This document shows, in pieces, positions 53,179 to 57,088 of a stretch of DNA of 64,000 bases; positions within the stretch are counted from its first letter, which is position 1, and every line of letters starts with the position of its first letter. Position numbers and translations under genes: made by a program. This DNA comes from a virus: positions 1-64,000 of IMG/VR virus record IMGVR_UViG_3300017991_000013; one strand, 5' to 3'. The notes beneath the pieces were generated by a model. The model saw only the letters and a program-made list of their open reading frames with translations. It did no database searches and had not been told where the DNA came from.

Positions 53179-53556
53179 GTGCCACGAAAGCACGAGCGCG
53201 ACTTAACCAAGAAACCTACGACGTGTGCCCTCGGCGGCTGCGAGAACCGCGGCCCCGAGAAGTGCCCGTTGTGTAAGCACTACACGCCGTCTCGTGGTTC
53301 GCGTTACTACTACTGCGCGAGGTACACCGCCAGCAGGGTCACCTGCGACAAGGATCACGACGAGTGTCAGACGTGCACTTACTACGAGGGCGGCGAGGGC
53401 TTCGGCTCTGGCCGTCCGAACTTCTCGGGTGTCGATTGGCAGGACCCAGAAGAGCGGGCCGCGTACATGAGGAAGTACATGCGCGAGTACCGCAAGCGCA
53501 AACGAGTGGAGCGCGAGAAGAAGCGTGCCGAGGAGGGAGCGACCGATGAAAAGTAG
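53179..53556 (+). CDS. Cysteine-rich zinc-binding protein with basic tail, 125 aa
   Basis: Nine cysteines occur in residues 16-71 with CxxC pairs (CPLC, CQTC) and nearby histidines, consistent with two zinc sites. The C-terminal 50 residues are basic and helical (YMRKYMREYRKRKRVEREK), probably nucleic-acid binding. The start is GTG at 53179 after GGGAGTAGAGA. It ends where the long inverted-repeat region begins. Confidence 0.55.
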   Translation: MPRKHERDLTKKPTTCALGGCENRGPEKCPLCKHYTPSRGSRYYYCARYTASRVTCDKDHDECQTCTYYEGGEGFGSGRPNFSGVDWQDPEERAAYMRKYMREYRKRKRVEREKKRAEEGATDEK

Positions 53557-53602
53557 TCGGGCGCGGGCACGTTTCTTCGCGGGTTCCAGCGAGCGTTCTG
53601 TT

Positions 53603-53839
53603 AAAATATATGCAACCTCTCCCCACATGGGCTCGCCCTTAGTTCTAAGGAAGGGGCGAAAGTCGAGTGTTAAAATAAAGGCTATCTGTCCCCGCTCTCT
53701 GATTCTCAGATTGACCTCAAAATCTGAGCGAGGTATGAGAGCGATAGGGGGTACAGATAGCCTTTATTTTTACAGGGTGCCCATCGGCGTTCTCAGAGTC
53801 GAGGTTTCAGAGATACGGGGGAGAGGTTGCATATATTTT
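53603..53839. repeat. Outer 22-nt inverted repeat pair
   Basis: AAAATATATGCAACCTCTCCCC at 53603-53624 is an exact reverse complement of 53818-53839. The two arms are 193 nt apart and enclose the inner 18-nt pair. Both arms share with the inner ones a TTAAAATA start and a C-run at the far end, so the two repeats are related elements in a nested head-to-head arrangement. Confidence 0.85.
53672..53770. repeat. Inner 18-nt inverted repeat pair with central hairpin
   Basis: AAAATAAAGGCTATCTGT (53672-53689) is the exact reverse complement of 53753-53770, extended imperfectly through CCCC and GCTCTC. In the centre CTCAGATT (53705-53712) pairs with AATCTGAG (53721-53728). As RNA this would form a long branched hairpin; as DNA it would be a cruciform-prone locus. 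Confidence 0.85.
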
Positions 53840-54047
53840 TACGGGTATCGCTCTCAGATCGCCCTGGCACTTTCAGAGGGGTATCAATCAGATATTTCGA
53901 GAAGTCGCGCCAGGATCAATCGAGCGAGCGGCAATCATGCGGGTAAAACGAAAAGAATGCGGGAATCTGCCAGGAGCGCGTGATTCTGCCCAGAGAGCGA
54001 CCGAGAACACGCGGCCGCAGAGAACTCAGGAAACGAGGAGGACCAGC

Positions 54048-54176
54048 ATGGAAAGACGACGCAAACGTCAACGAGTGAAAGGACGTCCTCCCCGAAAGGC
54101 GACTAGAGCGGCTCCTGGAGGGCACGGCATTTTCATTCGTCGACGTCGATGCCCTGTACACGACGTAACCAACTGA
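54048..54176 (+). CDS. Small very basic peptide, 42 aa
   Basis: ATG at 54048 is preceded by GAGGAGGACCAGC (a strong binding site) and followed by a 42-codon frame to TGA at 54174-54176. The peptide has 15 arginine/lysine residues and a few hydrophobics, so it would bind nucleic acid. It is the only gene-like object between the inverted-repeat region and the primase; coding status is uncertain. Confidence 0.42.
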   Translation: MERRRKRQRVKGRPPRKATRAAPGGHGIFIRRRRCPVHDVTN

Positions 54177-54253: not shown

Positions 54254-57088
54254 ATGAGTTCTCCCAAGGACCTAGATGTACGCAAGCTGCTCGATCACTT
54301 CGGGATCGAGTACGAGGAACGTGGCGACGGCGAGCTACGTGTGCTGTGCGCGTTCCACGCGGACGAGAACCCGTCGTGTCAGATCAACGTAGAGAAGAAG
54401 GCGTTCTTCTGTTACACCTGCGAGGCGAAGGGCGACGTCATCAACTACATCGCTGGCCGCATGAACACGACGCGGCCGACGATAATCAAGGAGCTAGAAC
54501 TAGAGGGCTGGGTCGGTCGGTTCATCTCGCAGAAGATGGTCGAGAAGTGGCACCAAGCTCTGCTCAAGACACAGCCCTACCTCGAGGCACTCAAGAAGAA
54601 GGGCATCAGTAAAGAGACCATCGACCGCTACTCGCTCGGCGTCAACCGACAGCGGATCACGATCCCGATCTACGACGACGCCAAGAACATCGTCAATGTA
54701 CGGCAGTACTCACCGAACCCGAAGGACGCTCGCCACAAGGTAATCAACTACAAGGGCTTCGGTGGTCGGCGGCTCTACCCGTACGAGGCTTTGGCGGACC
54801 AGGAAATCTGGATCACCGAGGGCGAGTTGAAGGCCCTGCTGTTGCGCGAGCGTGGGTTCAACGCCATGTGTGCGACGGGTGGAGCTGGCACGTGGGCGAT
54901 GGAGTGGAACGATCTCTTCGCCAAGAAGGACGTCGTCCTCTGCTACGACATCGACGACGCGGGGATCAAGGGCGCGAACCGAGTGGCGCGGTGTCTATAC
55001 CCGACCGCCAAGTCCGTGACCCTCGTGGTGCTGCCGATAGACCGCAAGGAGTTCCCGAAGGGCGACGTAACCGACTGGCTCGTCGACCTCAATCACACCG
55101 CCGAAGACCTGCGCGAACTACAGGGCAACTCGCAGCAGTGGTCGCCCGCACTCTTCCGCCGAGAGAACGAGGAGGAAGAGGACGAAGAGGTGACCCCGGT
55201 TCACCTGTCCCAGTCGTCGCTGGCGAAGTGGCATGGCAAGCGGGTCGAGACCGAGGCGCTGGTCTCCGCGAAGGACACCGCGCCCTACATCATCCCCGCC
55301 GAGATCGAGGTCGTGTGCCAGCGGGACAGCGGCAACATCTGTCTGGTCTGCCCCGTGGCTGGGTTCGAACCCGGGGAGACCTTGAAGATCGGTCCGACGA
55401 ATCCAGTGGTCCTCGAACTCGTCGGCATCTCAACCGACCAGCAGGAGCGAGCCATGAAGAAGGCCGCCGGCGTTCCGCGTTCCTGCTCGCAGTGTATCTT
55501 CAAGGCCAAGAAGTCGATGAACATCGAAGAGCTTCGACTGATCCCACAACTCAAGATCGCCACGCAGGAAACAGACCACGTGGTGCGGCGAGCGTTCTAC
55601 GTCGGCCACGGGATCGAGACCAACACCGCGTACATGCTTCGCTCCAAGGTGATCCCCGAACCACAGTCGCAGTACGCGACGTTGCTGACCTACGAGGCGG
55701 AAGCGTCGGTGGACTCGTTGTCGACCTTCAAGCTGACCCGCGAACTCAAGACGAAGCTCAAGCTGTTCCAGCCAAAGGAGTGGACGCTCACAGGGTTGCG
55801 GGTCAAGCTCGACCAAATCTACGAGGACCTCGAAGCGAACGTGACCCACATCTACATGCGGCGAGACCTCCACGTGTTCTACGATCTCGTCTACCACTCG
55901 GTCCTCTACATCCGGTTCCAAGGTCAGCCGATCAAGGGCTGGGTCGAGGGGCTCGTGGTGGGCGACAGCGGGCAGGGAAAGTCCGAGGCCATCAAGCACC
56001 TCATGAACCACTACGGCCTCGGTGAGAAGATCGACGCGAAGGGCGCGAGCGTAGCGGGACTGCTCGGCGGGCTGCAAGAGACAGCCAAGCGGTGGTTCGT
56101 GTCGTGGGGTGTCATCACCCTCAACGACCGACGACTCGTGGTGCTCGAAGAAATCAAGGGCATGCACCAAGAGGTCATCGCCAAGCTAACCGACATGCGG
56201 TCCAGCGGGATCGCAGAGGTGAGCAAGGTAGAGAAGGCAAAGACGAACGCCCGCACTCGACTCGTCTGGATCAGTAACCCGAGGTCCGACGATCAGGTGA
56301 TGTCGTACAACTTCGGGATCACCGCGGTCCGCGAACTGATCGGTTCGCTCGAAGACGTACGCCGCTTCGACATGGCCATCATGTTGGCCAGCGGTGAGGT
56401 CGACCGCAAGGTCCTCAACCTCCGAACGGGTGATCGACCCACGGCAGAGCACACGTACACCCACGAGTTGTGTCAATCGCTGGTGCTGTGGACGTGGAGC
56501 CGGAAGCTCGAAGACGTGCAGCTTACCGAGGAGGCGGAGGAACTGCTGCTCAAGGAATCGAGCCGCATGGGGAAGGAGTACTCCGCCACGATCCCGCTCG
56601 TGGAAGCGGCGGACCAGCGGCTCAAGCTGTTGCGGCTCTCGGCAGCGTGCGCGGCGCGGACCTTCTCCACGGAGGACGGGCAGACATTGCTGGTTCGGAA
56701 GTGCCACGTCGAGTACGTGGTGGAGTTCCTCGACCGAATCTACGACAGCCCCGCCATGGGTTACCGAGACTACTCGAAGAACCTCGCGGGCGAGAAGCAA
56801 CTGCGGGACGCCGATCAGGTCGAGGCGATCCTCAACGAGTTGCCGCACCAGAAGGACGCGATCCAATCCATGCTCGAAGCACCGGGCATGACCGCGACCG
56901 ACATGATGGACTGGGCGGAGATGGACAAGGATACCGCGCGAGAGTTTATCGGCGGCTTGGTCCGCAAGAACGCGTTGAAGCGTGGCCGTCGGTACTACGT
57001 GAAGACGCCGGCGTTCATCGCCATGCTCCGACGAATCTCTAACAACGGGGAACTATCCAACGAGGCCCCAGCGGAGGTAGAGTTCTAA
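54254..57088 (+). CDS. Toprim primase fused to MCM-like AAA+ helicase, 944 aa
   Basis: Replicative primase-helicase. The CHC2-type zinc site is C32, H35, C53, C56. The Toprim catalytic residues are E189-G-E191 in WITEGELKAL and D232-I-D-D in CYDIDDAG. The middle has an OB-like region with cysteine pairs (VVCQRDSGNICLVCPV; CSQC). The motor is AAA+/MCM-like: Walker A GDSGQGKSE at 570-578, Walker B LVVLEEIKG near 630, sensor TRLVWISNPR, and EDVRRFDMAIML with the arginine finger. The C-terminus is a winged-helix-like ATDMMDWAEMDKD...VRKNAL. ATG at 54254. Confidence 0.85.
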   Translation: MSSPKDLDVRKLLDHFGIEYEERGDGELRVLCAFHADENPSCQINVEKKAFFCYTCEAKGDVINYIAGRMNTTRPTIIKELELEGWVGRFISQKMVEKWHQALLKTQPYLEALKKKGISKETIDRYSLGVNRQRITIPIYDDAKNIVNVRQYSPNPKDARHKVINYKGFGGRRLYPYEALADQEIWITEGELKALLLRERGFNAMCATGGAGTWAMEWNDLFAKKDVVLCYDIDDAGIKGANRVARCLYPTAKSVTLVVLPIDRKEFPKGDVTDWLVDLNHTAEDLRELQGNSQQWSPALFRRENEEEEDEEVTPVHLSQSSLAKWHGKRVETEALVSAKDTAPYIIPAEIEVVCQRDSGNICLVCPVAGFEPGETLKIGPTNPVVLELVGISTDQQERAMKKAAGVPRSCSQCIFKAKKSMNIEELRLIPQLKIATQETDHVVRRAFYVGHGIETNTAYMLRSKVIPEPQSQYATLLTYEAEASVDSLSTFKLTRELKTKLKLFQPKEWTLTGLRVKLDQIYEDLEANVTHIYMRRDLHVFYDLVYHSVLYIRFQGQPIKGWVEGLVVGDSGQGKSEAIKHLMNHYGLGEKIDAKGASVAGLLGGLQETAKRWFVSWGVITLNDRRLVVLEEIKGMHQEVIAKLTDMRSSGIAEVSKVEKAKTNARTRLVWISNPRSDDQVMSYNFGITAVRELIGSLEDVRRFDMAIMLASGEVDRKVLNLRTGDRPTAEHTYTHELCQSLVLWTWSRKLEDVQLTEEAEELLLKESSRMGKEYSATIPLVEAADQRLKLLRLSAACAARTFSTEDGQTLLVRKCHVEYVVEFLDRIYDSPAMGYRDYSKNLAGEKQLRDADQVEAILNELPHQKDAIQSMLEAPGMTATDMMDWAEMDKDTAREFIGGLVRKNALKRGRRYYVKTPAFIAMLRRISNNGELSNEAPAEVEF

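Follow-up and report, generated by a model that had tools for sequence, protein, structure and literature searches.

The stretch of viral DNA analyzed here (the window, 64,000 nucleotides) carries, in a gene-free interval upstream of a primase-helicase gene, four copies of the motif TGTTAAAATAnAnGCA arranged as mirror-nested pairs. Judging from sequence comparisons, this element may well be a replication origin or the core of one, bound by an initiator and serving replication in both directions. Its main rival is a divergent regulatory hub, and both readings may hold.

Four inward-facing sites beside a primase-helicase gene

The four sites lie two per strand, all pointing inward at one exact common centre (53599+, 53668+, 53774- and 53843-; Table 1), and are concentric, with the same 69-nt spacing from A to B and from B' to A'. 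Four matches in 64 kb compare with none expected from 100 shuffles, and no copy was found outside the array in the whole virus record (G000). The record comprises 69,916 bases and, because it has a 123-bp exact terminal repeat, represents a closed genome of 69.8 kb. The original prediction had described two nested exact inverted pairs of 22 and 18 nt; both are present, as copies of this one motif, and the observation is correct and stronger than first stated. The outer pair extends over 25 nt with a single mismatch and 22 exact positions (53600-53624/53818-53842), and the inner pair over 32 nt, 88% complementary with an exact core of 18 (53668-53699/53743-53774). Five positions distinguish arm A from arm B, and since every one of these differences is matched in the opposite arm (5/5), the partner of A is A' and that of B is B'. 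The heads depart from this pattern: they read TGTTAAAATA / GTTAAAATA on the left side of both pairs and TGTAAAAATA (or CGTAAAAATA) / GTAAAAATA on the right, so that the same T.T mismatch recurs in the two stems.

Table 1. Coordinates of the features (window numbering unless a locus is named)
Feature	Position	Strand	Remark
125-aa Cys-rich protein, basic tail	53179..53556	+	candidate DNA-binding partner
Gene-free stretch with the element	53557..54047	.	lowest-GC 500-bp bin; overlying ORF non-coding by GC3
Site A, TGTTAAAATATATGCAACCTCTCCCC, outer left arm	53599..53624	+	
Site B, TGTTAAAATAAAGGCTATCTGTCCCC..., inner left arm	53668..53699	+	
Centre, small hairpin (CTCAGATT...AATCTGAG)	53700..53742	.	
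Site B', inner right arm	53743..53774	-	mirrors B
Site A', outer right arm	53818..53843	-	mirrors A
Five TYTCAGA iterons	53704, 53791, 53805, 53852, 53871 (span 53704..53878)	+	forward only
Possible 42-aa Arg-rich ORF, strong ribosome-binding site	54048..54176	+	read from sequence
Primase-helicase	54254..57088	+	DnaG zinc ribbon, Toprim, MCM helicase, predicted C-terminal winged helix
Type II hammerheads, locus L110	1558-1626, 1947-2019, 2393-2459, 2812-2880, 3104-3177, 3568-3648, 6359-6424		

The surrounding composition was also as predicted. A 152-aa open reading frame overlying the element has a GC3 of 0.52, below the 0.79-0.91 of adjacent genes, and is therefore not coding; once it is discounted, the interval is indeed the longest gene-free stretch of the window. 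The bin at 53501-54000 has the lowest GC (0.524), and the element itself has 0.47 vs 0.63 for the window, an AT richness without one clear AT tract. Iteron-like copies had been proposed as well, and TYTCAGA occurs five times forward and never in reverse, far above the shuffle mean of 0.15. An extended -10 reading of TGTTAAAAT was dropped because the corresponding sites in the related genome G002 read TGTTCAACT. Further downstream, a weaker imperfect inverted repeat (54052-54085/54202-54235; 34 nt, 76%), with a score equal to the shuffle maximum, encloses the possible 42-aa frame.

Pfam detected DnaG zinc ribbon, Toprim and MCM domains in the neighboring primase-helicase. In its AlphaFold2 model (pLDDT 83), residues 309-844 match MCM structures (6mii, Z 28.5, rmsd 6.6, 457 aligned), and a winged helix is assigned to residues 866-917 from three helices and two strands in the predicted secondary structure. 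In the model, a primase of bacterial type is thus joined to an MCM helicase and a C-terminal winged helix, and this combination of a bacterial primase with an archaeal/eukaryotic-type helicase is itself worth study. On the other side of the element, the Cys-rich protein has homologues in 6/40 related genomes, plus the related locus L266, and is a possible DNA-binding partner. It is kept in close relatives bearing the TGTT motif.

Array and inverted repeats in related viruses

The same array was recovered in L266, which was found by a search with the Cys-rich protein and whose primase is 52% identical to that of the window. Its four sites (4251+, 4326+, 4426- and 4502-) are concentric within 1 nt and lie at the start of the helicase operon, at the divergent junction of the terminase side and an SNF2 helicase. 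Three sites are kept in G002 and two in G003. The offset between sites is 69/69 nt in the window, 75/76 in L266 and 65 in a further array, and the inner inverted pair spans 107 bp in the window, 101 in L266, 107 in G003 and 104 in G002. The loops of the four arrays are unrelated, aligning at most about 2 standard deviations above shuffles. In G000, in G002 (a complete genome) and, as far as their 20-kb pieces reach, in L266 and G003, sites are confined to the element; two scans for exact motifs returned either nothing or one chance match within a gene. What is conserved among these arrays is the motif, with its inward orientation and geometry; their place within the replication region shifts from genome to genome. 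Relatives keeping the primase and lacking the arms had been named as evidence against the original prediction. On this point the outcome is mixed: the nearest relatives do lack arms at that place, but have the array elsewhere in their genomes.

Relatives of the primase-helicase occur in phages of Microbacterium, Arthrobacter, Bacillus and others, and at the DNA level the window had no match among isolated phages. In Krampus, Sparcetus, Youna2 and BSP7, the primase or the small gene before it is preceded by a gene-free gap of 310-500 bp; these gaps contain inverted repeats of unrelated sequence, directly adjoining the primase in Krampus, Youna2 and BSP7. Long inverted repeats immediately upstream of this gene thus occur in isolated phages of Microbacterium and Bacillus. 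The gap of Wollypog holds opposed short motifs without a long repeat. In five Krampusvirus genomes, 3/116 element positions vary, none of them in the arms, as against 53/585 outside. The genome paper on cluster EF, in its available part, describes other repeats and nothing at this site.

We further collected 80 IMG/VR relatives by alignment search and defined a long inverted repeat by a score of at least 20 and a loop of at least 30. Such repeats were present in 11/15 family genomes read whole or nearly whole, five of which had been chosen for an already seen repeat, and in 6/9 of the family genomes chosen by similarity, vs 0/81 random viral loci and 0/6 reference phages. Scores of at least 16 within 5 kb of the primase were reached in 19/80 relatives vs 3/81 random loci, and most relatives thus have no strong repeat near the primase. 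One repeat, upstream of the L263 primase, lies over genes and was left uncounted. Element GC was below contig GC in the window and in 12/13 relatives' elements, the exception (G007) being equal. Two elements were found in G001, two near-identical ones in G012 and several in G005, where a region of small genes (L098 8031-13956) holds five long inverted repeats whose arms are related in several cases. In G006, an inverted repeat with 75-nt arms and an AT-rich loop carries eight consecutive TAC/GTA triplets (L119 15120-15439). DnaA-trio-like runs stand out in G006 only and are weak in G005, and were dropped as a general feature.

A possible replication origin and known replicons

An origin would explain the confinement of the sites to a single locus, their fixed geometry, the mirror symmetry amid co-directional genes and the position in the replication region. 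The sites, their single locus, the conserved motif and geometry, the intergenic position and the little strand bias of the arms come from computation; origin activity, melting and the identity of the binder we infer. As in iteron-type origins, several motif copies, here four putative initiator sites, lie at one locus. Two pairs of the 16-bp site would face inward across a fixed centre of about 100 bp, with an initiator bound to both half-arrays; the simplest candidate is the primase-MCM protein, acting via its predicted C-terminal winged helix. The mirror symmetry would then load two helicase complexes in opposite orientation, the AT-richer centre would melt, perhaps aided by hairpin extrusion, and synthesis would be started both ways by the fused primase.

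Cumulative GC skew, suggested in the original prediction as a check, was assessed in 12 genomes as the distance between the element and the minimum of the detrended GC walk, and gave a divided answer. This distance is 56 bp in G002 (P 0.002), 785 bp in G008 (P 0.033) and 1.5 kb in G001; in the window's genome it is 10.9 kb, which counts against an origin. Overall, the genomes agree unevenly, and gene direction is a partial confounder. Also against an origin is MW202657, which has the closest primase relative among isolated or deposited phages and a gap of about 115 bp before the primase with no repeat there; the multiple copies in G001, G012 and G005 are likewise beyond what a single origin explains.

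Among known systems, the closest analogue is the stem-loop origin of plasmid pRN1 (PMC4234260). This replicon encodes a primase-helicase-winged-helix protein and depends on a nearby stem-loop origin that is essential, conserved in structure and not in sequence, and functional when moved (PMC4234260). The window similarly has such a gene, with its winged helix taken from the model, beside the element. In contrast, pRN1 combines an archaeo-eukaryotic primase with an SF3 helicase and has one stem-loop of about 100 nt without iterons, whereas the window has a DnaG zinc ribbon, Toprim and MCM, and four inverted sites. Since its primase and helicase types fall outside the pRN1 definition, the element would work like the pRN1 origin without being a member of that group. 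In satellite phage P4, the alpha protein, a Toprim-type primase-helicase, acts at ori/crr, and its C-terminal winged helix recognizes origin repeats; a mirror-nested concentric layout is not described there (PMC4234260). The likeness to P4 is in the Toprim-type primase and in the primase-helicase with a C-terminal winged helix, predicted in our case. The P4 helicase belongs to SF3, that of the window protein to MCM. SaPI pri-rep origins pair a helicase initiator and a primase, as separate proteins, at an iteron origin. Opposed initiator sites around an AT-rich centre are found in the long palindrome of HSV-1 oriL, although virus and proteins are unrelated. Finally, a primase recognizes the ssiA/ssiB inverted repeats of RSF1010 once the origin has melted (PMC4234260), but these are short separate stem-loops in a system with a dedicated iteron protein, RepC.

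That these elements represent a class of phage origin, in which two opposed complexes of a bacterial-type primase-MCM fusion load onto mirror-nested site pairs, with an inverted-site logic resembling that of eukaryotic MCM double-hexamer loading, is a speculative proposal that we consider rather unlikely. If the element is an origin, opposed loading of MCM-type helicases could be studied on a defined cis-site with primase and MCM in one polypeptide, and cultured relatives are available (Krampusvirus on Microbacterium foliorum). As a further rule, origins in uncultivated phages of the family could then be sought by a conserved geometry rather than by sequence.

Regulatory, mobile-element and RNA readings

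The original prediction had left open an origin, a regulatory hub or a structured RNA; the comparative data fit the first two. For control of divergent transcription, a phage regulator would occupy the four sites between outward promoters on both sides, without a replication role, the mirror layout being one promoter-operator cassette used twice. The outer arms of L266 indeed contain mirrored outward TTTACA-17-TATAAT promoters (11/12 matches), G003 has one strong outer-arm promoter directed at its helicase, and both arrays sit between divergent terminase and replication operons. These promoters fit regulation too, and the several elements of G005 would suit operators. However, a search of the window region yielded no sigma-70-type promoter, the mirror symmetry persists there although the flanking genes read in the same direction on both sides, and sites at a single locus are unusual for a regulator. 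We regard regulation without replication as somewhat unlikely. Iteron replicons are known to have autoregulated origins, and initiator sites controlling the replication operon are common in phage and plasmid origins. Such a double function, in which initiator sites also govern transcription of the replication operon, would accommodate the sites and promoters that share one element in L266; sequence alone cannot separate it from either pure reading, and we hold it improbable.

The near-identical pair in G012, the two copies with common arms in G001 and the varying position of the element among genomes bring to mind a MITE-like mobile hairpin inserting at varied places. Against this, no target duplication was seen by eye at the G001 and G012 copies, the element is single in the window's genome, G002, G003 and L266, and site geometry is fixed while loops diverged, making mobility the most improbable of the readings.

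A large structured RNA acting via the nested hairpin would account for very strong folding (z-scores of -10.7 on the plus and -13.2 on the minus strand). A selected RNA fold should give more G.U pairs than A.C mismatches. L266 alone leans in this direction (7 to 1), but the 32 other arms have 29 G.T and 29 A.C, and adding L266 gives 36 and 30. The arm mismatches thus show little strand preference, which favours a DNA element over an RNA. In addition, the element has no match among Rfam families, and the two copies in G001 have common arms and loops in opposite orientation. A structured RNA is thus disfavoured and, on these comparisons, very improbable.

No hammerhead ribozymes were found in the Krampus and Sparcetus loci or in L266. 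Past the window, seven type II hammerheads (Rfam RF02276) precede successive small genes in L110 (G000:C1:63001-69916), most of them followed by a AGGAGGACAGC-like ribosome-binding site, and two further look-alikes lie at about 4271 and 5093 of that locus. Type II hammerheads also occur in relatives, with three in G001 and one in G002.
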